58,688 nt of DNA from a virus. The stretch covers positions 1 through 58,688 of IMG/VR virus record IMGVR_UViG_3300020125_000336, one strand, 5' to 3'. The notes below the pieces were generated by a model that worked only from the letters and a program-made list of their open reading frames with translations, ran no database searches and was not told the DNA's origin. Numbering within the stretch: position 1 is the stretch's first letter; each line of letters opens with the position of its first letter. Shown here in pieces: positions 19,001-55,949 of this stretch. The translations under genes and the position numbers were made by a program.

Positions 19001-22000
19001 CAAACATGTTGCCCACTTCCGCCATTACATCTTTCGATGCTTCCGGCGAAACCTGAGCTTCTCGCTGAGCGCTATCGCCACCGCCTGTTTCTGCGGGTAG
19101 CCGCTGTGCCTCAGTTCCGATATGTTCTGGCTGACCACCTTTTTGCTGCTGCCCTTCTTTAATGGCATCTTGTTGTCCTTTCAGTTCACCGTGTTCTCTT
19201 AAAAATTTGATCCTTTGAGCAGCATCTTCCAGCGCCTGCTTGTTCTGCCTTTCAGCCCTCAACTTCTCGTTGAGCTTGTTCATCTTGGCCACGATGTTCG
19301 GAACCTCATTGGGCTTGGCGGCTTTGGCCTGCGCCGTGAGCCGATCCATCTGTGCCTGGAGATCTTTTATCTTCCCCTCATCGCCTTGAGGAAAGATGGC
19401 ACCAGCCTCGCGGCGATTGCGACCATAGGAAAATCGGGATGTGCTGCCACCTATTCCGCCACCGGGTTTTTTTGGTTCATCCTCGGGAGGAGGCTTGTTG
19501 ATGTTGCGCTCGATCCAATCCTCGATCTTCTTTCTCTGCCAATTAGTCATCTCGGTCTTTTCCAGCTCACCGCTCTGGCGAAGAATGGTGGCGATATAGC
19601 CGGGGGCCATTTTGCCCTTCATGTCATCAAACCAGCGCGTGGGGTCCTTGGGGTCATGCTTTAGAGCGAACCTTAATTGGTTATCGGCGTCCTGCCGGAT
19701 GAATTCTTTCAAATCGACGCCCCTGCCCTCGAACGTTGATCTGCCACGCACAGTTTTCAGGTAAGCTGTAATGTGCTCGTCAGGAGTTTCTGCCTCCTTT
19801 TCCTCTTCTGCGTACAAATCTTTGGGGATTTCCGGTTTGCTCTTTCTGAGGCGTTCAACCTCTGCCTTTTCTTCGGCTGAAAGTTCTTTCCGCTCAGGTC
19901 CAATTTGCTGGTCTATCCAGTCGTAGATGGAATCACGATGCTTTTTGAACATCACGTTTTTCCTGACCCACCCCGTCATGCGCATGGACGCCGCCAGCTT
20001 TTCTCTATTGGCCTTAGTTTGTTCCGGCGTGGCCATTTGGTTAGTGGTCATCCGATCCAATACTGAAACTGGATCTTTACCAAGATCGCCTGACAAACTT
20101 TTCACGTTGCCTTGCGCAAGTTCCATCAACGTTGGTATGGGGCCTTCTTGAAATCTCAACCGAACTCGGCTCTTGAAACTCCCTGGTCCTTCATACTGAT
20201 GGAAGTTGAGAATCTGCTCAGGCAGCCTGCCTTTTTGAGAAGCATATTCAGACTCTCCTTGCTGGAGCTTGGTCTGCTGCTGAAACTCATCGGAGTACTG
20301 GTCAAGGACATCGTTTATGGAATCCAGCAACTGTTTCCGCTGTGGTGTAAGCGTTTCATCACTGGCCAGACGGGCGGCTTCATCTCGAATCTTATTGGCC
20401 TCGAAGCGAGCGCTGGACACGTCGCCTTCTTTCAGGAACTGCTCCACTACGGCGAACGAGGTTTGCAGGCGTGGTGGCAATCTTTCAATGCCTTCGCGCC
20501 GTGGAAGTGGCGGGGCATCGGAGGGCCGGTCACGGATCGCAGTTATGTCGTGGCCAAGGTGGTAGCTCTTTTCCGTGCCGCCGCCCTTGTAAGTAATTTC
20601 AAACGGATGCTTTCCAACTTCCGGTGTGTGCGTGGCCTTGGCACCGGCAATAACTTTGCCTTTCTCGTCCACCATTAGCACGTGTGGATCAGCCAAGTCC
20701 CGAATGTCACGAGTGGCGTCAGGTTTAATTTCCAGATATGTGCCGTCTGGCTGCTTGTCAGCAAGAATTATCTTGCCGCCAGATCTCCTGGCTTTCGTGA
20801 TCGCTTCTACAGCCTTTCCAGAAATAAACACCACTGCATGCGGATCTCCCGAAATGTCATTTTTTGGCATTCCAACACCCGGTGGCCTGGAGAATCCACT
20901 TAGTCGCGTGGTTCGGCCACGTTCATCCATCATGTACTGGATTCCCTCAGAGGTGACGAACCCAGTTTGTCCAGCCACTGGCGGCTTGGTGGGCTTAATC
21001 GCCTCCCGTTCAGCCTCCACGGCCTTCTTTTTCTCCCGACGCTTATCCGCCGCCTCCTTAGCCTCGGTCACCTGCTGTTGCTTAATGGTGATGTCCCGAA
21101 TCTCCGCGAGATTCTTGTTCAGAGTTTTCTTATAATCTCTGATGAAACCAGCGACGGTGAGCTGAGGTGCGCCTTCCGCCCTGGCAAAGTTGGCGTCAAT
21201 TACCCGATCTTCCAGCTTCTTGCGATCAGCCAGACGAGTTTGGATAGCCTGATTCTCACGCAGTAGTTTTTGCTTTCTGGACTCCAGCCGTGGATCTGAA
21301 CGACCAATGGTTTCAAGCCTGGCTGTTTCAGCAGCTTCTGTGGCGGCAGCAGCTTTGGCATCCGCCACTCTCTTTGCTTCTGCTTGAGTTTCAGTCAGAA
21401 GTTCTTCAGGAATCGGAGTTGCCGCGCCCGTGGCCGGTTTTACTGGTGGCTTGGGCTCTTGTGGCACTGTGACTCCGCCTTCAGCTCGCGGTGGCTCTCG
21501 AAGTTCAATGGGAGGCACACTGCCTGGAGGGCTCCAGGGGCCTAAGGCTGGCTGCCCCATTGGGCCTGGCCTTGGAATAGTTGGACCAATCGGTTGGTCA
21601 TAACCAATTGGAATATTCGGCCCCAGCATTGGACCGGACGCTGGAACTGATGGCGGCATCCTTAATTGCTCACCCCACGAACCCTGGTAAGGACCAGCGC
21701 CAATTTGATCAGGTCGGGGCAAAAGCCGTCTCTCCTGTTCCGGTTGTGTTAGCGGTGTTGGCAGGGCTGGTGGCGCAAAAGGAAACTGCTGTGGCTGTCC
21801 AGTTCCGGTGAGACCGATGCGCGGCGGCGGAGCCTTTGGTTCAAGTCCGTAAATGTCCGGTCTTTGAGTCAGGTCCGTGCTGCCCTTGAGCAACGGGGAT
21901 ATTTCCGACATCGCTCCACCCAGCGTGAACCCGGTTGCTGTCACGCCATCGGCAATCAGTTTGGCGATCAGTTTATTGTCACGCTTTTCTGGTGGCTTGC

Positions 22001-22532
22001 CTGATTCCTCACCCAACTTCGTGGCGATCTCTGGAACTTCCTTCCCCATTTTGTAGGTGAAGTAGGCAATCAACGCCTTTTGGATTGGCGCAGAAACTCC
22101 GCCGATGCCAAGGGTTGAAAGTCCAAATGGCGACATCAACGTGTCCAGCGTCCCCACCGCGCTCTCCGCTACGCCTCCGCCAATATCCTCTACCAGCTGC
22201 TGCCCTGGTGTCGGCGGCTTGCTCAGTTGCAGGTTTGGCTGATATGCCGGGGCAACTCCCGAAATGGGCTGGAGGGAACGGGAAAGGTTAAGGCTGATTG
22301 GTCCGGTCTGCTCGCCTATTGGTTTGGGTGGGATCAGCGGCGTCGGCGGAACTGGCTGGACCTGCTCCTCCAATGCGCCTGCGTAAGGGCCACGGAAATA
22401 AGCGCCTTTAAACCCCTCGATTATGGATGGATCGATTAACGTCCTGGGAGGTGCCACGTCCTCTGGGCCACCGAAGTCAGGAAGCTTTGGCTTTTCTGCT
22501 ACGGCTGTGTCCCCGAAATCGGGTAGTGGCAT
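16023..22532 (-). CDS. giant ejection-type / polyvalent virion protein
   Basis: 2169 residues. Pro-rich first 450 residues, then charged coiled coils (about 450-560, 900-1300 and 1700-1900) with interspersed small domains, including a beta-rich segment near 590-720 ([18 protein letters not shown], then [12 protein letters not shown]). The C-terminal third is helical, resembles large phage internal proteins, and has one strong membrane-like helix ([16 protein letters not shown]) near residue 1960. It ends in a short PERM/PEKM repeat. Expected to be packaged and ejected with the DNA. No peptidase, muramidase or polymerase motif was identified by eye. Confidence 0.6.
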
Positions 22533-25172: not shown

Positions 25173-25880
25173 TTAAAAAGGATAGGTTTTTCCGGCTCCG
25201 CTGTTATACAGGTCCGTGAGTTGGGATGAGTTGAGCACACTTCCCAACCATACTCCAGTTTCATCTATCAACGTATCTGGAAAGCCAATTCTTACGATCC
25301 ACGTCTGGCTTGGAATGGTTGTGCCTGCATCGGAAGCCGAAGTAGGGCTCACGGTAAATGCGCCGTTATTCACCGATACCTGAGTTTTTTGGGAAATAGG
25401 GTCGTACTGGCCAACAATGAAGTACCAAGTGTTTGTGGCAAAGGCGAATGGGAGTGTCGCAACCACGTCCGGACCAACGGCGGGAGAGAACTTAAAAGCT
25501 GCGGAAATGTTGGTGATGTCAAACCTGAAATCAAGATCCCAGGCAGCCATTTCCAAAGCGCTATGCGCATTGCCCGGAGGTTGTTGGGGGACAAGGAATT
25601 TAATCCATAAGACAAACGTAAGGCCAGTGCCAGGAATGTAATGCAGCGAGTTTCCGCTTGGAGTTGTGTAGAATAGCGTGTCCAAAATACCGCCCGTGAA
25701 AAGCGCATTCCCAATGAGTCCTGGCGCATCACCTGTTTCAGTGCCGCCTACCAACAAGCCATTGCTGCCGATGGAGTCGGCCCGGGTGCCAGTTGCTTCA
25801 TCCAACTTCCAATATGCCGATGGAGTCGGAATGGATGAATTCACCGTTATCGAGAAATTCTTTTGGCACGCAATGCTCAT
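25173..25880 (-). CDS. LamG-like jelly-roll surface protein
   Basis: 235 residues. After an MSIACQKNFSITVNSS beginning, a LamG/concanavalin-like domain spans about 20-230: AYWKLDEATGTRADSIG, LTFVLWIKF, NTWYFIVGQYD and LIDETGVWLGSVLNSSQLTDLYNSG. Such domains bind glycans. ATGA coupled to the Ig-domain gene. Likely part of the host-recognition complex. Confidence 0.78.
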   Translation of the reverse strand: MSIACQKNFSITVNSSIPTPSAYWKLDEATGTRADSIGSNGLLVGGTETGDAPGLIGNALFTGGILDTLFYTTPSGNSLHYIPGTGLTFVLWIKFLVPQQPPGNAHSALEMAAWDLDFRFDITNISAAFKFSPAVGPDVVATLPFAFATNTWYFIVGQYDPISQKTQVSVNNGAFTVSPTSASDAGTTIPSQTWIVRIGFPDTLIDETGVWLGSVLNSSQLTDLYNSGAGKTYPF

Positions 25881-26842
25881 GTGGACTCCGTTTGCAGCGT
25901 GATGGTGAATGAAAACGTTCCGGCAACGGTTGGGGTTCCTGAAATAATGCCAGTAGTTTCATCCAGTGACAGTCCAGTCGGCAGTGCTCCGGATGTCACC
26001 TGCCAGCTCAGCGTCTGCTTTGCGCACGATGTTGCAACTAAGGTTTGAGAGTAAGCAACATTAGCGGTGGCATTTGGCAATGTGCCCGGGGTTATGTTGA
26101 CGACGCAAATATCGTACTTCTTCACCATGTAATCCCCGTTAGGCGCAGTCACCTTGACGTAGAACGTGAACTGGCCTTCCACTGTTGTGGTGCCACTCAG
26201 AAACACCAGTGCCCCACCGGCCCCGGTTGTGAGCGTGAGCCCAGTTGGCACGGAGCCGGAAACAATTTCCCAGAAGTTGTCCTGCTCGATGCCATCTCCC
26301 AAAAACCCACCTTGCGCCGTTATGGATTGCGAGTACGCAGATCCAAGGCAGGTCTCAGGCGGCAAATTGGAAAGGCAGATGCGATGCTGGGCTGCCAGGC
26401 GGCAGGCCAAAGCATGAGCCTGAGAATCCGCTAACCCTTGGGAACGACCGATGAACTCCCCGCCAGGGACATAATACGTGAACAGGTTGCCATCGGGGCA
26501 CTTCACGGCGCACGACTGCCCACGGTTAAAAAAGAGGATAGTGGTTGTGCCGGGATTGTCGGGATCTGGTTTGTCTGGTCCAGGGCAGTTCAAGCTGATC
26601 TGAGCGCAGCGTGCAAAAAGTTCAATCGCAACCGATGCCCTCTCCTCCGGGCTGGCACCGATGCGAACAGCAGCGGTGACCAGCTGATCGCAGCACAGCA
26701 TTTTCAATGTGCTGGGATCGCAACTAAAACCCTCGGGGCAGATCAGCACAGGCCCGAACTCGATCAGATCCAGGGAGTATGCTGACATCCCGAAATCATC
26801 GGCATCCACACAATCCAGGGGTAAGCAGGCTTTGCAACTCAT
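25877..26842 (-). CDS. virion protein with two putative-Ig domains
   Basis: 321 residues from ATG at 26842, two bases after the LamG-gene stop. N-terminal half is Cys-rich and shows the recurrent phage segment CAVKCPDGNLFTYYVPGG with SQGLADSQAHALACR. Two tandem He_PIG-type Ig repeats follow: SGSVPTGLTL...SGTTTVEGQFTF near residue 210 and SGALPTGLSLDETTGIISG near 290. Expected to be an extended fibre segment. Confidence 0.75.
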   Translation of the reverse strand: MSCKACLPLDCVDADDFGMSAYSLDLIEFGPVLICPEGFSCDPSTLKMLCCDQLVTAAVRIGASPEERASVAIELFARCAQISLNCPGPDKPDPDNPGTTTILFFNRGQSCAVKCPDGNLFTYYVPGGEFIGRSQGLADSQAHALACRLAAQHRICLSNLPPETCLGSAYSQSITAQGGFLGDGIEQDNFWEIVSGSVPTGLTLTTGAGGALVFLSGTTTVEGQFTFYVKVTAPNGDYMVKKYDICVVNITPGTLPNATANVAYSQTLVATSCAKQTLSWQVTSGALPTGLSLDETTGIISGTPTVAGTFSFTITLQTEST

Positions 26843-26844: not shown

Positions 26845-27666
26845 CTAGTAATGGTAAACGTTGGTGCCGTAGTTGTGAAAGGCGTTCACCAGAGTTTGGT
26901 CCAGCAGGGCACTGGATGTCAGCGAGTTGGTCCATATCCAAAACTCCTTAATCCTCAAAGAGTTTCCGCTGGCCCTGAATTCGTTTCGGCCTAAAAGCTG
27001 AATCGGTCCAGCTGGATTTCCAAAATATAAACCGTTGGCCACAGCGCCCTGGTATCCAGACGATACAATTGAATTTGTCCAACACTCCAAAGACTGATTT
27101 GGCGTGCCCCCTGAATTGGTCACACTTTGACTGACAATGAGATCTATGAAGAAATTGGTCAGCCCGTCCATTTTGTTGGTGATGAGGTTTTGGGCGGTGC
27201 ATCCACCGGATATGGCAAACGGCCACGTCAACGTTCCTCCATCACGCCACCCAAGTTCCGGGTTATTTAAACAAACACTTTCATTCCGTGAGGAAAGAAG
27301 TTGAGGATGCGTCCCACTGAATCCAACCACGTCGATGATGAAGCCAAAGGAGCAATTGCTGGTCAGCGGGAAGCTGGCATTGCTGAGCCAGTGGCTGGAA
27401 TCGAACCACACTCCATCCGATGAATTAGTCGGACGGTTGGCAGTCGCCCCGTTGGTGTAAACCACGGACTGAACCTGATCGGTCCAGCTCACCACAGCGG
27501 TATTCGTAGCCAGGTCTGTGGCCACCCACCTGTATGCCACCTGAGCCAGATTGGTTGTGATTCCAGCTGAAACGATTGCGTTAGGAGCCAGGAACGGCAG
27601 CCCCGTTGTCGCGTTAAACGGCTGCGCGGCGGCACTCAGGCACAGGAATGGAAGCAGCCACTTCAT
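26845..27666 (-). CDS. secreted LamG-like fibre protein
   Basis: 273 residues with a cleavable-type signal peptide (MKWLLPFLCLSAAAQ, probable cut after AAA). The rest is a concanavalin-like fold with WFDSSHWLSN near residue 87, SFGFIIDVVGFSG near 105 and EFWIWTNSLTSSALL at the end. ATGA coupled to the beta-helix gene. A signal peptide on a virion-type protein is unusual. Confidence 0.72.
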   Translation of the reverse strand: MKWLLPFLCLSAAAQPFNATTGLPFLAPNAIVSAGITTNLAQVAYRWVATDLATNTAVVSWTDQVQSVVYTNGATANRPTNSSDGVWFDSSHWLSNASFPLTSNCSFGFIIDVVGFSGTHPQLLSSRNESVCLNNPELGWRDGGTLTWPFAISGGCTAQNLITNKMDGLTNFFIDLIVSQSVTNSGGTPNQSLECWTNSIVSSGYQGAVANGLYFGNPAGPIQLLGRNEFRASGNSLRIKEFWIWTNSLTSSALLDQTLVNAFHNYGTNVYHY

Positions 27667-28901
27667 GGTATCTTAACGTTGCTTATCTTGAGGTTTCTGG
27701 CGGTGATCTTGGTGGGCAACGGCGGGTCCTGAGCCGTCACAAGTGGGTGAGGGTAAACCAGTGTTACCACTTGGGCAGGCACGAGATTGCTGAAATAAAC
27801 ACCGTTTCCCATATAGGCATCCGTGTTGTATCCTGGCTGCGGGATTCCGTCGTACGTGGTTCCGTTGCACACGTTCCCCCATATCCAATAGTTGGTTATG
27901 GGGTCGTAAATGGTTCCCGTGAACCAACTGCTTGTCGGGTCGATATCCTCCTCATGAAAGTAGATTCCAAGACTGCTGGCCGTTCCCGTGACGATGTTCG
28001 AGAACAGCAATCCGGACCCGGCGCGAGCGGTGATGAATTGCACCCCGCTGCTCAATCCGGTGCAGGTAAATGTGTTGCTGTAGATATTAAGCACGTAAGT
28101 GCCACGAGGGGTGGCTGGATTGGATGGAACACCCTGGTTGCCATGACACTCAAAGAATTGTGGGGCGCTGCTGTTGACCGTGATGTTTACATTGAAAGAC
28201 GAGTGCCTGACCACGTATCCGCCGCCATCCTGGGCGGAGAACATGATATTGGGTCCACTCCCGCTGCTGTCGAATGTGTTCCAAATCCCCACGTTGGATT
28301 CATAGACCATTGAATTAGTGCTCGCAAAGTCGGGCGGGAACCACGCCGTATTTGTCCTGACCCACCATTCCTCCACCGGGGTTGAGCTTTCGCTGGTCGA
28401 AGAGGTGGGGGAAATTGTCCTGGCAAACCTGTTGCAGTCAACAACAGTGCAGTGATCCACTACGCCAGCGCACCCGTTATAAAATGCGAATCCGCCGCCT
28501 GGGGACGACCCGTTGAAGTTCTGAATCCAGCAATGGTCTATGCGAGCCCTGCTGTTGGTGGCGCACCAAATGTGCATACAGTCGCTATTGTCGGACGGCC
28601 CAAGGAATTTTATTCCGCTTACACGCACTATTCCTGACCCGCTTAACTGGATCTGAACAGCTTGTCCGTTGCAGGTCACAATGGTGCTGTTGGTGCCTGC
28701 GCCTATCACAGAGAGGTGTTTTGTGATGCTTAAGGTAGAGGCCCACGTGACAGAACCCGCTGGGACATTAACCGTGTCCCCGTCGTTCATACCGTTTACG
28801 GCATTCTGAACCGTGCTCAGGTTGGCGTTGGGACAATTGGTCGTCGCCGCGTCAACGCTCAAGCACGCCAATCCAATCAGAATCGAGGTGATGGTTTTCA
28901 T
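27663..28901 (-). CDS. secreted right-handed beta-helix protein
   Basis: 412 residues. Signal peptide MKTITSILIGLACLSVDA, then a parallel beta-helix with pectate-lyase-like coils: VQNAVNGMNDGDTVNVPAGS near residue 31, GAGTNSTIV near 70, RIDHCWIQNF near 120 and VVDHCTVVDCNRF near 144. Could degrade or bind surface polysaccharide as a tailspike. No catalytic residues can be assigned by eye. TGATG coupled to the fibre upstream. Confidence 0.75.
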   Translation of the reverse strand: MKTITSILIGLACLSVDAATTNCPNANLSTVQNAVNGMNDGDTVNVPAGSVTWASTLSITKHLSVIGAGTNSTIVTCNGQAVQIQLSGSGIVRVSGIKFLGPSDNSDCMHIWCATNSRARIDHCWIQNFNGSSPGGGFAFYNGCAGVVDHCTVVDCNRFARTISPTSSTSESSTPVEEWWVRTNTAWFPPDFASTNSMVYESNVGIWNTFDSSGSGPNIMFSAQDGGGYVVRHSSFNVNITVNSSAPQFFECHGNQGVPSNPATPRGTYVLNIYSNTFTCTGLSSGVQFITARAGSGLLFSNIVTGTASSLGIYFHEEDIDPTSSWFTGTIYDPITNYWIWGNVCNGTTYDGIPQPGYNTDAYMGNGVYFSNLVPAQVVTLVYPHPLVTAQDPPLPTKITARNLKISNVKIP

Positions 28902-30115
28902 CAGAAGAAAGTCGGACGAATGACCAGATTGGTGGTGCCCCAGACCGGTGAATACTTCACCCAGATAATGCCAACCGTGGCGTTGGTGAGCACGGCGCTA
29001 CGCGTTCCATCGGAACTGGTGAAAGACGCAAAATAGACCGTTACGTTGGTACTGGCGGCATTGCTGATGGACAGGCTTACGCCACTGGAGTACGCGCCCA
29101 ACTTCCCGGCCACTCCAGTCAGCGAGCATGGCGTGAATGTGGTATAATAATTATCGGCAAAACCCAGGCTCAAAACATTGGTCGGACCAGCCCACGAGTT
29201 GGTGGACACAGCGTAGCCTCTGCCAAAGAACCCGTTCATGTTGGTATCGAACCCAGCAACAATGGTGGTTCCATCAGCATCCAGAATGTCGATGACGCCA
29301 CTCTTGTTGGTATCCACAAAGGTGGTTGGCCCAACCCAGGTCTCGTTGGTGCCATATCCTCCAAAACTCAAGACGTATCCGTTGGAGGTGAGTTGGAAGT
29401 TTTGCACCGTCAAGTTGGTGACGTAGAGATTGGTGATGTAGGAAAAATTACTGATGTTCGTTGTGGCGTTGACGGTCGTGGCAAAAAGATTGGTAGTGTA
29501 CAGGTTTGTCGTGAACGAAAAATTACTGATGTTGGTTACCGCATTGACCGTGGTGGCAAAGATATTTGTTGCGTAAAGGTTAGTCGTGAAATCGTAGTTG
29601 TTGATGTTCGTGACAGCGTTCACCGTGGTGGCGAAGAGATTGGTGGTGTAGATATTGGTGGAGTACAGGTTGGTGATGTAAGCCGTGCTGTCGAAGATGT
29701 TCGTGACGAACAAATTGGAAGTAATTTCCGTTGTCACAAACAAATTGGTCGTGAAATCGTAGTTGTTTATGTTGGTTACCGCGTTGATCGTCGTGGCGAA
29801 AATATTGGTTGAGAAATCGTAGTTGTTGATATTCGTGACGGCGTTGATCGTGGTGGAGTAGAGGTTGGTGATGTAAGCGACATTCACCACGATGTTGGTG
29901 CCTATTGCGTTCGTTACGGTAATGCCCATCTGGTTCGCAAACTCCGACTCGGTGATGTTGTAATTCGTGGACCCTCGCCACACCAAAATCAGGTCATTGG
30001 CGTTAAGGGTGGACGTGTGAGGAAACTGCGGGTAAGTGATGATCTTAAAGACGGTCTGCGCTCCGAGTGTCAGGAGCGCCACCACGATCAATAGTCCAAT
30101 GAGGCATTTTTTCAT
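28901..30115 (-). CDS. Asn/Thr-repeat fibre protein with signal peptide
   Basis: 404 residues. N-terminal hydrophobic export signal (MKKCLIGLLIVVALLTLGAQ), a short folded segment, then a shaft of repeats (residues about 80-235) built from units such as ATTINAVTNINNYDF and TTNLF/STNIY. After it come two Ca-site-like loops (DTNKSGVIDILDADG and DTNMNGFFG) and a beta-rich tip. The repeat pattern suggests a trimeric fibrous shaft. Confidence 0.7.
   Translation of the reverse strand: MKKCLIGLLIVVALLTLGAQTVFKIITYPQFPHTSTLNANDLILVWRGSTNYNITESEFANQMGITVTNAIGTNIVVNVAYITNLYSTTINAVTNINNYDFSTNIFATTINAVTNINNYDFTTNLFVTTEITSNLFVTNIFDSTAYITNLYSTNIYTTNLFATTVNAVTNINNYDFTTNLYATNIFATTVNAVTNISNFSFTTNLYTTNLFATTVNATTNISNFSYITNLYVTNLTVQNFQLTSNGYVLSFGGYGTNETWVGPTTFVDTNKSGVIDILDADGTTIVAGFDTNMNGFFGRGYAVSTNSWAGPTNVLSLGFADNYYTTFTPCSLTGVAGKLGAYSSGVSLSISNAASTNVTVYFASFTSSDGTRSAVLTNATVGIIWVKYSPVWGTTNLVIRPTFF
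29411..29878 (-). repeat. coding repeat array of the fibre shaft
   Basis: About five copies of a 15-20 codon unit encoding ATT(I/V)NAVTNI(N/S)N(Y/F)(D/S)F, separated by one to three TTNLF-type pentads. The pattern is visible on DNA as recurring GTTGGTGATGTA/GAAATCGTAGTTG segments on the plus strand. Confidence 0.75.
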
Positions 30116-30117: not shown

Positions 30118-32208
30118 TCAGGTTCCGATAAGCGATCCGCCGCCGCCACTTTGCACACTGCCGCCACCGCCGCCGATCAGGCCAATCACCCTCTCTGTTT
30201 CAGTTGAAACCGGGCAGCAATAAGGAGGTGAAAATCTGGGCCGAGGCGCGGCGATTGCTTCAAAGCGTGCGCCCTTAAACTGACAGTGACCCACGATGAT
30301 GATTTTGATCTGAAAGTTGAACCCTTCCCGCAATGGGCGGTTGTTGGTCGGATCACAGAAGTTGGAACTTGGCTCCCCCAGGCCCATAACAGGCCGGAAT
30401 TGAGGCTTGGAATCGTCCGAGTCTGACCCGGCGCATTCAGTCCACCTATACCACAGCGTCCAGCATGGGTATTCGTCCGGCTTCCAATAAACATCAAACC
30501 CCACGGTTCCGATCAACTGGTCCACGTAGATTTCACCGTTGGTGAGGCGCTTGTAAATTCTGGTCCGTTGATCCGCGTCTTTGAATATCGTGGGGGACCA
30601 CATTTCAATCCGAATGGGGACGCTGCCGTCATCCTGAATCAGCTCGCTTTCAGTGGGCATGATCTCCCAAAGCTCAATCTGGCTATTGGTGGTGTTGACG
30701 GTGAAGGCAAAGCATCTTTGCACCCCGGCAAATTCCCCCACGAGCAATTGCAGCACGTTGAGCCCGGTCCAAAGCCCGTCATAAACTGAAGGGGCCTTCC
30801 CGCGCAGCGTGGAAATCGGATCGAAGTTCAGCGCCACAATTCCACGATGATAAACACCTGATCCAACACGCTTGGGGCTGACGGTGAGCAAATACCGATT
30901 GTCAAAAACTACCGAGCTGCTGAACTGAGAGAGTCCACGGTCATCCCGAGCCAAAATCGGGTCAACTTCAAGGCTCTGCGGCACGTTGCCCCAAGTGTCA
31001 AAATCACGCCGTCCCAGAATCAGTGAGCGAAGGCCATCCACGGCGCGAAACAGAATGTCGCCGTTGGCGTTCTGAGTTGACCACTGCGAAAGCGCTCCGT
31101 TGCTGATTAATGATTCAGTGAGTATGGGGTTGGTCAACGATTGCCACGTCAGCCGGTCCACCGGGGAGTTGCACGAGAACACCTTGTCCGGGGTGAATAT
31201 CTGCACCGGCCCTTGCCCAAGCGAAGCATCAAGGGTTGCCGCTTCTCGAATGGCTCTTATGTCTCCAGCGCTCCCGGGGACAGTGAACAGACCACCACCG
31301 GCCAGGAAGTTGTTTTCCGTCACATGCAGGACGGCATCGCGGAACTCGTTGGCCTGAGTGCCGCTACTCCCGCCAACCAAATCACTAACGATCCATTGTT
31401 TCCCGTTAGGCAGGCTGACCCAATTCCGGCCCATCACATAAGCGCCCATCCGGCCAGGTGGCAGAGAATTCTGGGCGTGAAACCAAGAAACGGTTACTCC
31501 AGAACTGATGACTCCTCCCGTTGGTGTGGAGCTTTGGTTGACCAGATCCACGGTCCCGGTTGTTCCACCTGTTGGGGTTGGTGCTCCCTTGACCAAAAAT
31601 TGTCCGTTTTGGATCGTGACCAAATCTCCGTCGTTAAGATTGGTGATGTCAGCAAGAGGGACTGCGGTTGCAGTGCCACCGGGCGGCGGAATGACAAAAT
31701 CAGCAGTAGTGGTGGTGGTCAGATAAGCTGTCGGCCCCAGGCGATTGGAGAAAGTGTCCGAAGTGTAAATTGGACGCGACACCCCGTCGTTCCAGATCGT
31801 CCACTCCTCGGATTGCCAGAGCCACGCCTGATCTGGTCCGGCAGGATTGGGGCCACCGAGCACCGCACTGGCAGTCATCTCGGTGACAACGGCGGTATCG
31901 TCCAGCCCTGGGGTAAACTGAAACAACCTTCCCGATATGGCTGCTCTTAGGCTTTCCGCACCGGAATCAGGATTGTAAAAACAGCCGCCTTGAAACTTGA
32001 AAGTGGCAAAATCCATGACCCCGCTCAGCTTCATTTTGCGGTACACTGGGCGATGGGAGACGAAGGTGCCTCGCACCGTGCCGTTGACCAAATTGTTCAG
32101 CTGGTTCTTTGGTAACAGCAGCGGGTCAATCCCAAGGTTCATCCCCGCTTCAAAATTGCCGAGGAAATCGTAAAGCGTGTCTGGCTTATAATCTTGTGGA
32201 GCAGGCAT
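30118..32208 (-). CDS. tail nozzle (tubular protein B-like)
   Basis: 696 residues. Starts PQDYKPDTLYDFLGNFEAGMN and has propeller-like strands throughout (SPVDRLTWQSLTNP, RDFDTWGNVPQSLEVDPIL, DDRGLSQFSSSVVFDNRYLLTV). This resembles the beta-propeller nozzle proteins that close the tail of podoviruses. The C-terminus is Gly/Ser-rich. Lies between the small neck-type protein and the fibre. Confidence 0.68.
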   Translation of the reverse strand: MPAPQDYKPDTLYDFLGNFEAGMNLGIDPLLLPKNQLNNLVNGTVRGTFVSHRPVYRKMKLSGVMDFATFKFQGGCFYNPDSGAESLRAAISGRLFQFTPGLDDTAVVTEMTASAVLGGPNPAGPDQAWLWQSEEWTIWNDGVSRPIYTSDTFSNRLGPTAYLTTTTTADFVIPPPGGTATAVPLADITNLNDGDLVTIQNGQFLVKGAPTPTGGTTGTVDLVNQSSTPTGGVISSGVTVSWFHAQNSLPPGRMGAYVMGRNWVSLPNGKQWIVSDLVGGSSGTQANEFRDAVLHVTENNFLAGGGLFTVPGSAGDIRAIREAATLDASLGQGPVQIFTPDKVFSCNSPVDRLTWQSLTNPILTESLISNGALSQWSTQNANGDILFRAVDGLRSLILGRRDFDTWGNVPQSLEVDPILARDDRGLSQFSSSVVFDNRYLLTVSPKRVGSGVYHRGIVALNFDPISTLRGKAPSVYDGLWTGLNVLQLLVGEFAGVQRCFAFTVNTTNSQIELWEIMPTESELIQDDGSVPIRIEMWSPTIFKDADQRTRIYKRLTNGEIYVDQLIGTVGFDVYWKPDEYPCWTLWYRWTECAGSDSDDSKPQFRPVMGLGEPSSNFCDPTNNRPLREGFNFQIKIIIVGHCQFKGARFEAIAAPRPRFSPPYCCPVSTETERVIGLIGGGGGSVQSGGGGSLIGT

Positions 32209-32783
32209 TATCCAATGATCGCCCAGTCAACGGTTGAAACATCGGTGGCGCTGCTGGAATTGATCGTGAACCCAACGCCCACTACCCGGCTGGCGGAAGG
32301 TGCACTCAGGTTGCCCAACGCCCCCAACGGCGTGTTGCGGCTCAAAAAGATCTTGCTCGATGCCGTCACCAGTGGAGTGGCAACTGTCACGGTTCCGGCC
32401 ACCAAAATCGCCACCCCAGTCGTCACGGCAATTGCAGCAGGCCCGGCTATTCCGCCAGGGGATACTCCTGCGCCGGACACAATGTTGGTGGCTGGCGCGA
32501 TGTCCCCGGCGTAATTCAAGGCGACAACGGTGGCGGTGGTTGGCCCGGTAATCGCAGAAACCCGCACGTGGGCCGGGCCACTAATCACCAGCACCTGGCC
32601 TACGACCATGAAAGCGGTGGAGATGACGGTGATGGTCCCGGTGGCGTAGGTAAAATCTGCGATGGTGAAGGTATAGGCGTTTTGACCATTGGTTCCGTCC
32701 AATCCACCCAGGCCTTCAATGCCGGGGATGTTGACGGAGAGCGGTACACTGCAACAAGGCTGACAAGGGGCAGTAGCTGGCAT
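32208..32783 (-). CDS. neck/tail-associated structural protein
   Basis: 191 residues. Two Cys pairs at the start (PCQPCCSVPL), then IPGIEGLGGLDGTNGQNAYTFT (in part) followed by Gly/Val/Thr-rich strands and a WAIIG end. The collagen-like G-x-x-G-x-x-G start and beta body are common in small tail-associated proteins. Stop and next start share one base. Confidence 0.58.
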   Translation of the reverse strand: MPATAPCQPCCSVPLSVNIPGIEGLGGLDGTNGQNAYTFTIADFTYATGTITVISTAFMVVGQVLVISGPAHVRVSAITGPTTATVVALNYAGDIAPATNIVSGAGVSPGGIAGPAAIAVTTGVAILVAGTVTVATPLVTASSKIFLSRNTPLGALGNLSAPSASRVVGVGFTINSSSATDVSTVDWAIIG

Positions 32784-32786: not shown

Positions 32787-33296
32787 TTATTCTTTCAGTA
32801 AGTATTTTACGTGATTCCATGTGTCACCCTGGATGGCGCGTTGGCCAACGGATGGCTGGACACCAAAACGGATTGCTATACTTCTCATGCTTGCCCCGTT
32901 TTGGAAGTGCAGAGCACGCATGAGCTTTACATCGAAGTCTGTCAATTTGGCCTGACTGTTTTTCGCACCAACGAAAGACGCTCGCCTGCCTTTCTCTTTC
33001 ATGTCGTCGTGATTGTCTTTCAATGTGCCAAGAAAAAGGTGACGTGGATTAACGCACGCCGCGTTGTCGCAAGAATGCAAAACGTTTAGCCTGCCTGGAT
33101 CTTGTCCATTTTGCAAAAACCACATCACACGGGCAGCGTAGGTAGTTGTTTCGCACACCCAAAAAACAGCTCGAATGCCGCTTCCAAGCCCACCTGTCCA
33201 AGACCAGCATTCATCCGGACAACGCTTGTTGACCTTTGACCAGAATCTTTCAACATCGCGTGTTGAGATTTTCGGCAGTGGCTTTGGATGGCTCAT
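32787..33296 (-). CDS. HNH homing endonuclease
   Basis: 169 residues. WSKVNKRCPDECWSWTG near residue 19 is the typical opening; the core HSCDNAACVNPRHLFLGTLKDN near 79 (shown in part) gives the H, N and H metal/catalytic positions and a Cys pair; a C-terminal helix-turn-helix (SMRSIAIRFGVQPSVGQRAI) probably binds DNA. First gene behind the strong leftward promoter at 33330, next to the terminase gene. Confidence 0.9.
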   Translation of the reverse strand: MSHPKPLPKISTRDVERFWSKVNKRCPDECWSWTGGLGSGIRAVFWVCETTTYAARVMWFLQNGQDPGRLNVLHSCDNAACVNPRHLFLGTLKDNHDDMKEKGRRASFVGAKNSQAKLTDFDVKLMRALHFQNGASMRSIAIRFGVQPSVGQRAIQGDTWNHVKYLLKE

Positions 33297-45942: not shown

Positions 45943-46355
45943 TCGACGCTTAACCGCTTGGAGCACTCCTTGCAATGGGATCGAACTCCTCCCCATCGGC
46001 GTGGACTTTTGCTTTTGTAAAAGTCAGTCAGAGGCTTCGTAATGCGGCAACCAGGGCAAACCTTTTTGTCTTTAGGCAAGTCGTAAAACGAATCGCCAGG
46101 AAAACCAGCGTGCCTACAGTTGCAAGACATGCACAGAATTCGCCACTCGCCATTCCTGTCGTGCTGTAGTGTGATGACTGTTTTTGAGCCGTCCCTTTTG
46201 AACCAGTTCATCCTGTGCCCACAACACGGGCAGGCCATATTCTTCGGAATACTGGCAATAAGTTCTTTTTCAGATGGAACGGACTTGCCGTTGTATTTGG
46301 CGAGCGTCCTCATTCGGGAAACGCGCCATTTCTTAGGATTGGCTTCCGGGTTCAT
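45915..46355 (-). CDS. multi-zinc-finger protein
   Basis: 146 residues from ATG at 46355, or 155 from 46382. Cys pairs CPCC near 41, CMSC near 75, CPGC near 103 and CKEC near 131, with nearby His, fit two zinc knuckles; FYKSKSPRRWGG and a basic tail suggest DNA binding. The last half is reminiscent of phage endonuclease-VII/HNH-like zinc proteins. Precedes the glycosyltransferases. Confidence 0.6.
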   Translation of the reverse strand: MNPEANPKKWRVSRMRTLAKYNGKSVPSEKELIASIPKNMACPCCGHRMNWFKRDGSKTVITLQHDRNGEWRILCMSCNCRHAGFPGDSFYDLPKDKKVCPGCRITKPLTDFYKSKSPRRWGGVRSHCKECSKRLSVEWQRRKRAK

Positions 46356-46599
46356 GGACAGTCGGCTTTGGTGGTGTCTCAAGTATCCTAATTAAGGCGT
46401 CAGCCATATCCGCCGCCGCGCCCATATTGCAGATCACTTGATCCTTGCGGTTGATTTGCACCAGCGCCACGGCGAAGTGGATCGCGAAATAATCACGAGT
46501 GCTCATGCGTGGAAGTCCGTCATCGGGTCCGGTAAGTGGGTTTTGATAGCTACTCATATCGTTTTTAAACTGCCTGTAGAGTCGTTCATGGTAGGTCAT
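46333..46599 (-). CDS. hypothetical protein
   Basis: 88 residues. MSTRDYFAIHFAVALVQINRK near 32 (in part) and NMGAAADMADALIRIL near 58 recall small phage proteins that pair an RDYFA helix with an AxxxADALI helix. Function unknown. Overlaps both neighbours. Confidence 0.68.
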   Translation of the reverse strand: MTYHERLYRQFKNDMSSYQNPLTGPDDGLPRMSTRDYFAIHFAVALVQINRKDQVICNMGAAADMADALIRILETPPKPTVHEPGSQS

Positions 46600-46783
46600 T
46601 TTTGTGGTTGTTCATTCGGCGTTCGATTTCGATTAAAGCAAATTTATTTGGAAGGTGCGTTCCCTCTTCCCATCCCTGGTACGTGCGGATGCTGGCTCCA
46701 AGGATATTAGCAGCTTCCTTTTGTAGCCACTTGTTGCCGGTTCTCCACTTACGCAAAGCGGCTGCGAAATCCTCTCTGCTCAT
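46586..46783 (-). CDS. XRE-family helix-turn-helix regulator
   Basis: 65 residues from ATG at 46783, whose ATGA overlap with the HNH stop favours it over the longer frame. FAAALRKWRTGNKWLQKEAANILGASIRTYQGWE (in part QKEAANILGASIRTYQGWE) is a full Cro/CI-type helix-turn-helix. Sits at the head of the sugar cassette, so it may control it. Confidence 0.82.
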   Translation of the reverse strand: MSREDFAAALRKWRTGNKWLQKEAANILGASIRTYQGWEEGTHLPNKFALIEIERRMNNHKNDLP

Positions 46784-49760: not shown

Positions 49761-50837
49761 ATGGCTTGTGACGCTGCAACTCTCGAAGCACTTTCCGTCC
49801 TGACCGATAAAAACACTCGGCTAAGCGACAGGGATCGGTTGATATGCCTGGCCAGTGTTTATGGTACTGCCGCAGGTTACGCCAACTCCCAGGTAGCGAT
49901 TAACGCAGCGTACGCCAATCTCTACCAAAGGCTCTCTGACCGGGATCTTCTCATGGCTTTTCAATCCCAAGTTTGCTCCTCCAGCGGCGTCGGAGGCGGC
50001 GGAAACGACCCACTGGTCACATCGTGGAATGCCAGAGCTATTGCCAACGGTTGTATTCCTTCGCAGGCAACCTTGAGCTGCCTTAACACTTTCTGTGTTG
50101 GTATCCGAGCGCAGACCTACTTCACCAAGCTGAAAAGCGTCAACTTCCTTTCGCCAGACAGTTTCCTATGCGCGATGACCCCGTTAATTGTGCACGCACA
50201 GGACGTGGGGTTTTGGAAGGCTCAGACAGGCGCTTTCCCTGCTGGTGGAAATACTATTGTTACTGGCTCTATCGCAGAACTTGGTCCACTGGGATTTCGA
50301 TCTGATTACCCGTTATCAGCCAGCCCAGGAAACAACAATTACAATCCTGCCGCGATCTTCGCCTCAAGAACTAGCTGGGGGGTCACTATTTACACGACCA
50401 CCAATGACGGTTTGCATGGTCCCCAGGGCATTTCATGGGGAGTAGACGATGGCGCTGATTACAACATGGGTTCCAATAATACCGGTGGGTTCACTGCCAT
50501 GTACGCCAATGACTCACCCACTGCGTTCTCAGCCGCGTTTAGTTTCTATGGATATTACTCCTTCAACGTAAGTGGCCCAAGCGCAAGAACTATTTATGCT
50601 GCCAACTCCACGCATGCCCATGCGGTTTTCACCAGTAGCGCAATAGCTCTCGGCGGAAACCTGCTCAGCAGACAATTTGCCTGGGCGGGTGTCAACGACA
50701 ACCTTGCGAACAATGGAGGCACGAGTAATTGGCACTCGTTTTTCGCCTTGCACGACCCACTGACTTTGGCTGAATCAGCTGATTTTTACACGCGCATTCA
50801 AACATTGAGAGTGTGCCTCGGAAGTGGATTTGTATAA
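49761..50837 (+). CDS. probable receptor-binding fibre protein
   Basis: 358 residues. Residues 1-70 hold two copies of a helix ending in RLSDRD, also found in the next gene, and may be a virion attachment module. After a Gly-rich hinge (GVGGGGN) comes a beta-sandwich-like domain with WGVTIYTTTNDGLHG and AESADFYTRIQTLR at the end, the latter typical of phage LamG-like adhesins. Confidence 0.62.
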   Translation: MACDAATLEALSVLTDKNTRLSDRDRLICLASVYGTAAGYANSQVAINAAYANLYQRLSDRDLLMAFQSQVCSSSGVGGGGNDPLVTSWNARAIANGCIPSQATLSCLNTFCVGIRAQTYFTKLKSVNFLSPDSFLCAMTPLIVHAQDVGFWKAQTGAFPAGGNTIVTGSIAELGPLGFRSDYPLSASPGNNNYNPAAIFASRTSWGVTIYTTTNDGLHGPQGISWGVDDGADYNMGSNNTGGFTAMYANDSPTAFSAAFSFYGYYSFNVSGPSARTIYAANSTHAHAVFTSSAIALGGNLLSRQFAWAGVNDNLANNGGTSNWHSFFALHDPLTLAESADFYTRIQTLRVCLGSGFV

Positions 50838-50850
50838 CGAAAGGTATTTT

Positions 50851-51105
50851 ATGGCTTGTGACGCTCAATCTTTAATCAACACGGCATACGCCAATGGGTA
50901 CGCCAAACTTTCTGACCGGGATCTGCGCGAGTGCCTGCTGGCAGCCGCTTGCGCCGGTGGAGGTGGCGGCGGTGGTGGATCTGGCGCTGTGCTCCAAGAT
51001 GCCACGGGCAGTGCGCCACCCGATCCGACTAAACCGGCAATCTCCTTCCCAACTGGCGGCGGCGGAATCTCTGAGTGGGACGTGGCCTCGCAAACTTGGA
51101 TCTGA
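50851..51105 (+). CDS. short attachment-module protein
   Basis: 84 residues from ATG at 50851, chosen because MACDAQSL matches MACDAATL of the previous gene. A helix with KLSDRDLRECLL, a run of Gly, and a short strand end. It looks like the attachment module of the previous protein without its receptor domain. Confidence 0.62.
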   Translation: MACDAQSLINTAYANGYAKLSDRDLRECLLAAACAGGGGGGGGSGAVLQDATGSAPPDPTKPAISFPTGGGGISEWDVASQTWI

Positions 51106-51107: not shown

Positions 51108-52547
51108 ATGAAAAAACTGCACCTGCTTCCTTGGCTTGGGCTCATGGTACTGCTCGTAGTGGCCTTCGTGCCAAGCTTGACGGACTTCAACACCAGTGAT
51201 TTCTCCACCACGGGCAACAAGGTCAGGTTCAACCCGGGCATGACGAACTACTGGACTTCCTTGGGAGGAGGCACCGGCATCGCCACCAACAACGGCACCG
51301 GATTGGGGAACACATTTACCAACGCCACGCTGTGGAACGGCACGAACCAAGGAAATGCATTTACCAGCCCTGGCTCAGGGGTAAATTCTGAACAATTCGG
51401 ACTGTCAGCCAATGCTTCCGGGACGAGTGCGACTGCTTTGGGATATTTGGCTGCGGCTACAAACATAGATTCCACTGCTCTGGGCAAGTCTTCTATCGCA
51501 GGCGAGTCGGCTACTGCTGTTGGATCACAGGCAAAAGCGACCGACCAGGGTGCTACCGCTATTGGACTAAGATCCACCGCCAGAGCCCCATTGAGTGTTG
51601 CCATTGGAGGATTGTCAGTTGTAGCTCCAACTCACACTCAAAGCATGGCTTTTGGATATACTGCCGCAACAACTACAAACAACCAGATCATGCTCGGCAC
51701 AGCCACGGAAACAGTGGTGTGTCCAGGCATACTCCAAGCACCGTTCATAACCGGCTTAAGTTCCAACAGCTTTTTCGGATTATTTAACGCCAATGGAGTG
51801 CTATTTATGGAAGCGACCAACAACGCCTTTTGGCTGACCAATGCTGGCGCAGCCATAGCCAGGCTTGATAGGCTTAGCGTTTCGGGCAATGAGACCAACA
51901 CCAGCTTCGGTGCCGGGGTTGTCCACTCTGACGCTAACGGAAAGAAATCATCGAGCGCAGTGGTAGAATCAGACTTAACCCTCAGCGCCAACACGACGGC
52001 AAACGTCACGACTAGCCAGCACGGATTTGCTCCCGTGCTTCCAAACGATGCAACAAAGTATCTGGATGGGACAGGCGCTTACAGTGTGCCTGCTGGCGGA
52101 TCTACTCCTTGGGTTAGACAGATATTAATGTGGAATAGTGGCGGGTCAGTTGTACTTAATAACACAACAACTTATGGTGCTTTGGCTGGAGGTTCTACTT
52201 GGTCCGGTTCAGGTGGATTCGGATCAGAAGCTATATCTGCTACTGTGGGTCCGGTTGGTGGCTATTTAAGTAATTTTACCGTCTTTATTGCTGCCAGCAC
52301 TGTTCCTTCATTGACCACAAACATAGTGTTTACTGTTCAAACCAATGCTCCACAGGCTAACTCTCCTACCTGTGTGGCCTCTCCTTTGGTTTGCACTCTT
52401 TTTGGAGGAGGATCAAGATTTACAAATGATACTGTCCACTCCGCAACCTCTCTTCCGAACGGAGGAACATTTGATGTAAAGGTAGTTACTACCAATAACG
52501 TAACAACCGCTGCCTATTCGTGGACTGTAGAGTGGTGGCACCAATGA
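51108..52547 (+). CDS. secreted YadA-head-like fibre protein
   Basis: 479 residues from ATG at 51108. N-terminal hydrophobic signal (LPWLGLMVLLVVAFVPS). Residues about 95-195 carry 14-residue repeats of trimeric adhesin heads: ATALGYLAAATNIDSTALG, ATAVGSQAKATDQGATAIG; then NQIMLGTATETVVCPG, a neck-like motif. A Ser/Gly-rich C-terminal beta domain follows. A trimeric fibre bearing an export signal. Confidence 0.75.
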   Translation: MKKLHLLPWLGLMVLLVVAFVPSLTDFNTSDFSTTGNKVRFNPGMTNYWTSLGGGTGIATNNGTGLGNTFTNATLWNGTNQGNAFTSPGSGVNSEQFGLSANASGTSATALGYLAAATNIDSTALGKSSIAGESATAVGSQAKATDQGATAIGLRSTARAPLSVAIGGLSVVAPTHTQSMAFGYTAATTTNNQIMLGTATETVVCPGILQAPFITGLSSNSFFGLFNANGVLFMEATNNAFWLTNAGAAIARLDRLSVSGNETNTSFGAGVVHSDANGKKSSSAVVESDLTLSANTTANVTTSQHGFAPVLPNDATKYLDGTGAYSVPAGGSTPWVRQILMWNSGGSVVLNNTTTYGALAGGSTWSGSGGFGSEAISATVGPVGGYLSNFTVFIAASTVPSLTTNIVFTVQTNAPQANSPTCVASPLVCTLFGGGSRFTNDTVHSATSLPNGGTFDVKVVTTNNVTTAAYSWTVEWWHQ

Positions 52548-54955
52548 GGCTAAGCACTCTAACGTTTTTGTTGCTGCTGTTCTGCGAGTCGGCTTTCAGT
52601 CAGACATGCTCCAATCTATTTGTAACCTTTGAGGGCGGAACGAATGGAACGGTTGTTACACCCGCGCTTTTAAGTTCAAATACTTTTGGAAATCTTCAAG
52701 GTTATTGGGAAGTTGATCCGGGTGATGGTGGAATAACCGGATTCCCTGGCGGTTTAAAATGGTCCACCAATGCACAGCACGCATTATCCAGCTCGATAAG
52801 TGTTTGTGGCGACGGAACACAATCAGGTGCGGGAACTTTGGGGTTGCAAGCTTACAACACAACGAACAGTTCGTGGTCGCCTTGCCATTTCAATTTTAGC
52901 AATGCCGTATCCTACGTGACCGTTTCATGCTGGCTTTATTGGACAATGACCAATACGGCCAATTACGACATACTTGATGTTCATTACTCAAGCGGGGCCG
53001 TGGCCTATAACAACCTATTGCTTTCGACTCGTCCTACGTTTGCCTATATCCAAAGTGAAATCAGCGGGTGCGGGACATGTACCGATTATTTAACGAACTC
53101 TGTTGGGGATTACTCAACTCTCCCTCCATTCACCTGGTATTTTGCTAAGTTGACGTATGACGTAAGAACGAACTTCCCGAATATGTCTCTGGTATTAACA
53201 GATACCAACGGAGGACTAGTTGGAGCATATACCTGTTATCAGCCGTGTCCCGGCGGAACCTCAATGGCTCACGTATCGCTTGGTGTTTTCACGTCATCTT
53301 ATTTAACAAACGACCCGACTGCTTTTGTCTATGTTGATTCACTACTTATTGAGGTGGGAACCAATACTACAACGTGCCCTCACCCCACGAACGAAATAGC
53401 CTGCACTTATACAGCCCTGACTAACGCCATCGCCTGCGCCCAGGAAGGCGACACGATTCTGATAGACCCTGGCACAGCTACCATTCTTGACACGATCAAT
53501 ATTAATGCTGAGGTGAGCTACCACATCAAAGGATCTGGAACTAACAGCACCATACTGGTTGCGGATAGTGGGGTAGGTACTGTGTTTAATATTTCATCGA
53601 ACAGCGCCAACATGATGACGGTTTCGGATATGACGTGTTCCGAGACAGGAGCTGGGAATATATTTTTCTCTGTAGGACCAAACAACCCCGGCACTCCGCT
53701 GGCTGGCTACGTTCGGCTCTACAACCTGAGCCTGACAAACATGCTATTTTACGGCATGAGTATTGGCTCGTCCGACTCATATACTTTGGTTGATCATTGC
53801 AATTTCGTTGTCGCTCCCGGCGCTACTAATTGGAATTGCGTGGTGGTTTATGGCAACCAATGGTTCTCTTGGTCCACGAACGGCAACCAGCTGGGGACCA
53901 TTCGACAGAACGTGGTCGAGGACTGCTCGTTCCTGAATAACTCCGGCAATGTGGGAAATGGGTTCTTTGACGGCTACAACGGCGGAGCACTGACTTGGAG
54001 GCACAACCTTTGTGACGGCAACGCCGCCACAGGAAACCACGGCTACGACTCGGCAGTTACTTCCATGAAGTCCATGGAGGTGTACAACAACATCTTCACG
54101 AACATTGACAACCTGTGTTTTGGGAGCCGTGGCGGTGCGTGGCTCTTTTTCAGCAACACGGTTTACGGGCTTAATCCTTCGAGTGGTGGACAGGGGAACA
54201 TGGGTCCTGGCTTCGATTACTACCGGGCTGTGGCCGTGGTTCCGAGCGTGCAGCAGACCTTGGGCTATCCTGGCCTAACGTTTACCAATAGCTATTCCAC
54301 AAACTGGACTGACGGAACGGATTTGCAGATTGGCTTCTCTCATTATACGCTTTACAGCAGCATTACGACTGGAGGCCACCAGAACGTATCCGGGGCCGTG
54401 CTCATCGGCTCCGACCTGCCTCACACCATGACCAATCTCGTGGCGTGCCTGAATGCGGATACTGGGGCCGGTTCAGTTTACACCGCCATTTCGACCAACG
54501 CCTACCCCATCGGGAAGTCTCCGAATAACGACGTGAGCTGCCACACCGACAGCACCGGGACCAACCTTTACATGCTCAACAAGCTGGACGGCACCAACGT
54601 CTATTCCGGCTCCATCGCCGGTTATCCGGCTGCGATGGCTCCGGGCGTGCTGACCATGAGCTTTCGCACGAATTATCCCGCGCCGGTGGTTTATCCCATG
54701 TTCCAATGGAGCAATGTGTTACATTATTCCGATGCAGTGGTTACCAACATCGTTTGGGTGGACAGATTTGAAGGCGACAGCCACGTGCCGAATTATTCCA
54801 CCAATCTCCTCCAGCGAAACCGGGACTTCTTTGACGCCATGATCGCCACCAATTACACGCCGTTGCAGTATCCCGATCCCTTAACCGGCAACACTAATCC
54901 GCCTCCGACGGCGCTCCGTGCTTCGTTTGTTGGCAGAAATCTACAACTGAAGTGA
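52544..54955 (+). CDS. secreted beta-helix tailspike-like protein
   Basis: 803 residues from ATG at 52544 (ATGA). Signal peptide MRLSTLTFLLLLFCESAFS|Q. Residues about 25-270 look LamG-like; about 290-640 form a right-handed beta-helix (IACAQEGDTILIDPGTATIL, HIKGSGTNSTILVADSG, TLVDHCNFVV, WRHNLCDGNAATG). Pectate-lyase-type fold; may cleave or bind surface glycan. Shares its architecture with the gene at 27663. Confidence 0.76.
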   Translation: MRLSTLTFLLLLFCESAFSQTCSNLFVTFEGGTNGTVVTPALLSSNTFGNLQGYWEVDPGDGGITGFPGGLKWSTNAQHALSSSISVCGDGTQSGAGTLGLQAYNTTNSSWSPCHFNFSNAVSYVTVSCWLYWTMTNTANYDILDVHYSSGAVAYNNLLLSTRPTFAYIQSEISGCGTCTDYLTNSVGDYSTLPPFTWYFAKLTYDVRTNFPNMSLVLTDTNGGLVGAYTCYQPCPGGTSMAHVSLGVFTSSYLTNDPTAFVYVDSLLIEVGTNTTTCPHPTNEIACTYTALTNAIACAQEGDTILIDPGTATILDTININAEVSYHIKGSGTNSTILVADSGVGTVFNISSNSANMMTVSDMTCSETGAGNIFFSVGPNNPGTPLAGYVRLYNLSLTNMLFYGMSIGSSDSYTLVDHCNFVVAPGATNWNCVVVYGNQWFSWSTNGNQLGTIRQNVVEDCSFLNNSGNVGNGFFDGYNGGALTWRHNLCDGNAATGNHGYDSAVTSMKSMEVYNNIFTNIDNLCFGSRGGAWLFFSNTVYGLNPSSGGQGNMGPGFDYYRAVAVVPSVQQTLGYPGLTFTNSYSTNWTDGTDLQIGFSHYTLYSSITTGGHQNVSGAVLIGSDLPHTMTNLVACLNADTGAGSVYTAISTNAYPIGKSPNNDVSCHTDSTGTNLYMLNKLDGTNVYSGSIAGYPAAMAPGVLTMSFRTNYPAPVVYPMFQWSNVLHYSDAVVTNIVWVDRFEGDSHVPNYSTNLLQRNRDFFDAMIATNYTPLQYPDPLTGNTNPPPTALRASFVGRNLQLK

Positions 54956-54958: not shown

Positions 54959-55243
54959 ATGATACAGAACCTGCTAACAAATTGGAAAACCACATCGGCT
55001 GGCATGACCATGCTGATTGGAGCCTGGGTCCACATGGCCTTTGCTCTGAATTCCCATACAGCCACTGAGACGGATTGGACTACGACCTTGGTAGCCACCG
55101 TTGCCGGGATTGGGCTGATAGCCGCTGGTGATGCCGGGACCAGTGTTCCCAAGTCCGACATACCAGCACTCAAGCAAGACGTGGCAAAAGCCATTGAAAC
55201 CAACGATACCACAACCCTTAAAAAGACGGATATTAAACCATGA
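54959..55243 (+). CDS. holin-like membrane protein
   Basis: 94 residues. LLTNWKTTSAGMTMLIGAWVH near the N-terminus includes the first membrane segment, and LVATVAGIGLIAAGDAGTS the second; the tail is charged. This LLTNWKTT(S/L)AG type is common in phages and often assumed to be a holin. ATGA coupled to the next membrane peptide. Confidence 0.65.
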   Translation: MIQNLLTNWKTTSAGMTMLIGAWVHMAFALNSHTATETDWTTTLVATVAGIGLIAAGDAGTSVPKSDIPALKQDVAKAIETNDTTTLKKTDIKP

Positions 55244-55404
55244 GCATTGCACTTCTATTGTGGATCATTATGATCGTCGGCCTGTTATTCGGTGTTTACA
55301 CCAATCGCACCTCGCTCCCGGCGTGGGCTGGCAACAGTCTTGTCCAATGGGTGCTTTTTGCCCTCCTGGGCTGGGCTGTCTTTGGGGCTGCCGTTCACCG
55401 ATGA
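55240..55404 (+). CDS. 54-residue two-span membrane protein
   Basis: ATG at 55240 (ATGA) to TGA at 55404, which overlaps the next ATG. Two hydrophobic segments: ALLLWIIMIVGLLFGVY and VQWVLFALLGWAVFGAAV, separated by a polar loop with Asn/Arg/Thr. Size and layout fit a small holin or antiholin partner of the preceding gene. Confidence 0.65.
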   Translation: MSIALLLWIIMIVGLLFGVYTNRTSLPAWAGNSLVQWVLFALLGWAVFGAAVHR

Positions 55405-55949
55405 AATGGCTCCAGCCAATTTTGCTTCTGACGGCGCTGCCGGTGCTGGCGCAAGTGCCGCCGTTGCCGCCGATGCCGGTTAAATTGCTTTCTCCCAAGC
55501 ACGCTGAACACGTGGCATCCCTTGGCAAGACCATGGTTAAGGCTGCTGTGACAGCCCCGGCGCAGAACTTCCTGATGCTCACGTGGAATTACCCTTCTAA
55601 TCTGGTCCCGTTGGTCGTGTTTGAGATCTATCACGCCACGTACTTGAACAGCTTTCCGGCTTTGACCAACCAGCTCCAGATTCCATCCGGGTTTACGCTG
55701 TTGCTGGAAGTGACTGGAGGAACCAATTGCCTGATCCAGCCACAGATGGCAATGGAGTTCTTCATCGTTCGGGCCCGGGACATCGCCACGGGGGCACACA
55801 GCGCCTGGAATGCGGCAGCGGCAATGACGGGGGCCTTGGAACGAGTGGTGATGGTGACGCCCACCAATGGCCAAGTCGTCTCAAACACAATCACGCTGGA
55901 GGCTCAGGTCATCACTTTGGACCCTCCTTTCACGCTTGCCCTGAAATAA
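55401..55949 (+). CDS. secreted beta-sandwich protein
   Basis: 182 residues from ATG at 55401. Signal peptide MKWLQPILLLTALPVLA|Q, Pro-rich segment, then one fibronectin/Ig-like domain (FLMLTWNYPSNLVPLVVFEIY and FFIVRARDIATGAHSAWNAA in part). Lies among holin-like genes, so it may act in the envelope or decorate the surface. Function unknown. Confidence 0.65.
   Translation: MKWLQPILLLTALPVLAQVPPLPPMPVKLLSPKHAEHVASLGKTMVKAAVTAPAQNFLMLTWNYPSNLVPLVVFEIYHATYLNSFPALTNQLQIPSGFTLLLEVTGGTNCLIQPQMAMEFFIVRARDIATGAHSAWNAAAAMTGALERVVMVTPTNGQVVSNTITLEAQVITLDPPFTLALK

Follow-up and report, generated by a model that had tools for sequence, protein, structure and literature searches.

What does a phage gain from fibre-type proteins that carry signals for export? 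Phage tail parts are normally assembled in the cytoplasm and, to our knowledge, classical phage tail fibres and tailspikes have no signal peptides, unlike three adjacent genes (genes 1 to 3) in the window analysed here, i.e. the whole stretch of 58,688 bases at positions 1-58,688 of virus record IMGVR_UViG_3300020125_000336, from an uncultured bacterial virus. The original prediction held that these genes each begin with a signal peptide, and that their products may be displayed on the infected cell, released as glycan-active decoys or anchored in a virion membrane by the signal. No paper describing exported tail fibres was found in the open-access literature searched, and in a survey of hypervariable phage adhesins the lack of signals, unlike in surface-displayed bacterial adhesins, was taken as supporting a phage origin (PMC6199706). 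The coordinates and the minus strand first given for genes 1 to 3 are correct, and the locus is composed as follows.

28901..30115, minus strand: gene 1, fibre shaft of 404 aa; predicted signal peptide at residues 1-19 (30115-30059).
27663..28901, minus strand: gene 2, beta-helix-like protein of 412 aa; predicted signal peptide at residues 1-18 (28901-28848).
26845..27666, minus strand: gene 3, 273 aa, called lectin-like only from its position and its relatives; predicted signal peptide at residues 1-14 (27666-27625).
25877..26842, minus strand: downstream neighbour of the cassette, with putative Ig (He_PIG) domains and no signal.
30118..32208, minus strand: conserved gene upstream of the cassette, a putative tail nozzle without a signal; used as an anchor for finding relatives.

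The start codons of genes 1 to 3 are fixed by tight translational coupling to the preceding gene: the first ATG of gene 1 lies two bases past the stop codon of the 30118-32208 gene, while gene 2 and gene 3 each have a start codon that shares bases with the stop codon before it (TGATG-type and ATGA, respectively). At these starts all three N-termini combine a charged n-region, a hydrophobic core and a c-region obeying the -3/-1 rule, as scored with a home-made heuristic of n/h/c-regions and the -3/-1 rule rather than with SignalP. The predicted N-termini and cut sites are MKKCLIGLLIVVALLTLGA^Q (gene 1), MKTITSILIGLACLSVDA^A (gene 2) and MKWLLPFLCLSAAA^Q (gene 3), and inspection of these sites revealed no lipobox with Cys at +1. 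The signals first proposed for the three genes hence appear real, Sec-type and each with a plausible signal-peptidase I site, and the same score flags three rightward genes (starting at 51108, 52544 and 55953) as the other strong cases in the window. Within 56 contigs having a related capsid-candidate gene, the score is passed by 70 of 231 genes downstream of that gene and by 14 of 407 genes elsewhere, as well as by 81 of 3190 shuffled N-termini. Only 1.4% of control stretches from mature regions have cleavage-site-like scores above the real median. Ala occupies -1 in 84% and Gln +1 in 34% of 64 signals, frequencies that are partly built in, as both the score and the site chooser favour alanine at -1.

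In their predicted architecture of shaft and beta-helix, in their putative lectin- or enzyme-like tips and in their place among structural genes, the products of genes 1 to 3 resemble the fibres and tailspikes of phage tails (PHROG tail fibre families; the Sf6 and LKA1 beta-helix depolymerases). A few relatives match PHROG tail families; genes 1 to 3 themselves have no match to known tail fibre families in Pfam or PHROGs. After its signal, gene 1 encodes a collar-like segment followed by Asn/Thr-rich repeats, and its AlphaFold model (pLDDT 38) is of too low quality for a structure search. For the beta-helix assigned to gene 2 there are a partial model, confident at residues 20-130, and loose fold matches to PL6 lyases and tailspikes (E 0.004-0.2), the best in the PDB being a PL6 lyase (E 0.004), with tailspikes at E 0.01-0.2. 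The LamG label of gene 3 finds no confirmation, as Pfam and PHROGs gave no LamG match; a weak one (E 0.026, below Pfam's cut-off) belongs to the gene at 25173-25880, which has no signal. The gene 3 domain recurs C-terminally in two signal-bearing fibres of related contigs (L071:16264, E 6e-6; L075:3947, E 2e-5). Sequence searches of the PDB with the gene 2 family, the gene 3 family and the G005 fibre returned nothing useful. Elsewhere in the window, a 191 aa protein without a signal (32208-32783), beside the nozzle-like gene, matches K1-lyase_C (PF24146, 1.6e-19) and is a short fibre candidate, and a single gene of 2169 aa (16023-22532) has no Pfam match, a very long gene being similarly placed in relatives.

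Conservation of the signals was followed in relatives. Genes 1 to 3 have the conserved 30118-32208 gene on one side and the 24161 gene on the other, in a structural gene block of which both flanks are kept in relatives; neither flanking gene has a family match, and we infer a tail function for them. The closest relative (IMGVR_UViG_3300046690_000366, here G001) has all three genes, all with signals, and no relative of the three without a signal was found. Gene 2 and its G001 counterpart have mature bodies 83% identical behind a rewritten signal (25%), while in gene 3 the signal is the better conserved part (71%, against 36% for the mature body), so that a signal is retained whichever of the two, signal sequence or body, has diverged. 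It is also kept in the gene 1 relatives at L002:8001-9245 (60%) and at L036:12370 and L060:13326 (31%); the latter two, and a gene 3 relative in L060, belong to the other fibre locus, again with signals. In G001 a series of signal-bearing genes of fibre, LamG-like and beta-helix type stands near the cassette genes, mostly with short overlaps. Eight contigs with a relative of the 30118-32208 gene keep the flanking genes and lack the cassette at that place, which identifies it as an accessory insertion. Family scans with genes 1 and 2 yielded few further relatives, no relatives of genes 1 and 2 or of the two anchor genes were found among INPHARED phages, and an 811 aa rightward protein has no relative in the viral contigs. 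Judged from sequence, genes 1 to 3 appear to form an accessory cassette of fibre-type proteins with genuine, cleavable Sec signals.

The feature extends well beyond this cassette. A scan with the gene at 47455-48954, whose position and size alone make it a capsid candidate, gave the 56 loci of the group, and signal-bearing fibre-like genes recur in at least 25 contigs. As the terminase, portal and capsid candidates have no convincing match in Pfam, PHROGs or NCBIfam, these names were read from sequence and gene order. Two signal-bearing relatives match PHROG tail families (L031:14336, tail fibre, 4e-5; L073:14686, baseplate wedge, 2e-9), and residues 45-114 of another (L075) match an annotated tail fibre of Cylindrospermopsis phage Cr-LKS3, itself without a signal. 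The domains found on signal-bearing relatives are Melibiase, BNR, GH130-like, subtilase, YadA-head and Laminin_G_3, with alpha-galactosidase on L056, L050 and L079; some of the fibre-like genes are fusions with an alpha-galactosidase, BNR or lectin-like domain. At L090:4919-9901, on an apparently unrelated contig with a different-looking capsid block, signal-bearing genes of the same kinds (fibre, Laminin_G_3, beta-helix and short genes) again stand in a row. Glycosyltransferase-looking genes recur upstream of the capsid candidate (L034:1947, L045:1229, L050:459, L061:501), and in the window small genes that look HNH-like by eye (32787-33296 and 46780-47229) adjoin the terminase and capsid candidates.

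A second, rightward set in the window places signal-bearing fibres directly beside a small protein that may serve for docking:

49761..50837, plus strand: docking-type protein without a signal; its C-terminal domain is common to the signal-bearing fibre L076:14988 (E 4e-18).
50824..51105, plus strand: putative short docking stub, a Cys-repeat relative with a Gly linker and a Trp-containing end.
51108..52547, plus strand: fibre with YadA-head repeats, 479 aa, with a predicted signal peptide; relative at G001:39191-41032.
52544..54955, plus strand: protein of 803 aa with a beta-helix region and a predicted signal peptide.
55401..55949, plus strand: putative signal-bearing protein from an internal ATG of ORF 55128-55949 (internal start MKWLQPILLLTALPVLAQ, read by eye); similar-looking gene at G001 46176-46709.

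The stub ends two bases before the signal-bearing fibre at 51108. The C-terminal domain of the 49761..50837 protein, found also on other longer docking-type proteins that have no signal, occurs in exported and non-exported adhesins alike. Throughout the group, the stretch from the capsid candidate to the fibres contains short Cys-repeat proteins, which we infer to be docking stubs. For the stubs that have a Trp-containing end, a class defined post hoc after inspection of the data, the very next gene bears a signal in 11 of 12 cases, versus 80 of 407 for other genes (Fisher 3e-7), and the reading frame directly after the twelfth (L069) carries one as well. Fibres L044 and L062 of the group have no signal, which counts against the reading favoured below; both begin at a PPxxxN..DT motif, the very motif that follows the predicted cleavage site in other fibres. 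Searching by this mature motif alone retrieved one new contig, where a signal is likewise present. Programmed frameshifting as a means of joining stub and fibre is unlikely, as spacing and frame vary between contigs. In two contigs (L064:4491-6353 and L068:11968-13863) a single open frame runs from docking repeats and Trp end through the hydrophobic segment to the fibre, which may represent fusions or internal starts.

Taken together, the products of genes 1 to 3 are probably exported and have an extracytoplasmic role. The export of fibre-type proteins contained in the original prediction is thereby retained, on the strength of the N-termini and their conservation in relatives. Late in infection the proteins would pass through the inner membrane and signal peptidase I would trim the exported fibres to the conserved mature N-terminus; the mature proteins would then wait in the periplasm until freed at lysis. 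A docking stub would meanwhile be built into the particle in the cytoplasm, and the freed mature fibres would then join progeny virions through it. That the mature fibres join virions via the stub is, taken by itself, not far below an even chance; it would account for the coupling of stub and fibre genes and for the shared mature N-terminus. A mature fibre joining a stub built in the cytoplasm would be assembled in two compartments. This complete scheme, with a cytoplasmic stub and a Sec-exported fibre cut in the periplasm to a docking-competent N-terminus and joined at lysis, is tentative and, as a whole, less likely than not. Joining at lysis through a co-expressed stub was not among the uses first proposed and is somewhat better supported than these.

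The strongest competitor has lysis set the proteins free as soluble glycan-binding or glycan-cutting agents that never join a virion; these would block or remove receptors on neighbouring cells and cell debris, or else loosen extracellular polymer. We regard this as well possible, if short of likely. If the exported proteins act freely, their enzyme domains and the absence of a stub beside genes 1 to 3 would be explained: exported relatives carry alpha-galactosidase, BNR, GH130-like, beta-helix and subtilase domains, some genes of LamG-like or beta-helix type stand alone, without a shaft, and neither the window nor G001 has a stub adjoining genes 1 to 3, such a neighbour being found only beside the gene 1 relative of L060. 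The many exported proteins with enzyme domains or without a shaft would fit free enzymes equally well and thus count against joining. However, virion tailspikes carry such enzymes too, and free action leaves unexplained both the coupling to stubs and the mature N-terminal motif common to fibres without signals. Joining the virion is therefore rated slightly above a free glycan-binding or glycan-cutting role, the data favouring it only mildly. Exported fibre modules across a whole phage group would break the rule of cytoplasmic fibres, and would mean either an assembly route that is new or a released set of glycan-active proteins. They would also warn annotation pipelines against calling signal-bearing fibre genes bacterial.

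Surface display, in which the proteins are retained at the surface of the infected cell, where they alter adsorption or aggregation, is improbable. It would agree with the presence of signals and with the YadA-head repeats of one fibre: like the YadA-type trimeric autotransporter adhesins (type Vc), the 51108-52547 protein has a signal peptide and such repeats. It differs from them in having the head region only; no C-terminal YadA-like anchor or translocator was matched, so that it would have no self-made route through the outer membrane. Neither a YadA anchor nor PEP-CTERM or another sorting family was reported for genes 1 to 3 or 51108, the whole set has no C-terminal sorting motif in common, and genes 1 to 3 have no lipobox. 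Phage proteins exported to act at the envelope do exist, namely the small superinfection-exclusion lipoproteins T5 Llp and phi80 Cor; genes 1 to 3 share with them export by a phage, but differ in encoding large fibre-type proteins without a lipobox. Very unlikely is a hydrophobic N-terminus that escapes export and serves as a virion anchor or trimer-starting segment, for although the L064 and L068 fibres hold a hydrophobic segment within one ORF with the stub, cleaved signals typically show what is seen here, a charged n-region, an AxA-type site and Gln or Ala at +1. As the sites look cleavable, a virion membrane anchor is the least likely of the three uses first envisaged. The faintest of the candidates is that the genes were acquired from host secreted proteins and retain signals without a role for the phage: a host origin is conceivable for the beta-helix, GH141-like and Ig domains of relatives, but signals were kept or renewed over deep divergence, on fibre-type sequences.

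Genome contigs yielded a single Anaerolineae MAG contig, not enough for naming a host. Lipoprotein-like genes beside the lysis region hint at a host with two membranes; one such gene, of about 200 aa, recurs beside the fibre and lysis region (L032, L038, L043, L045, L062, L072, L075, L085).
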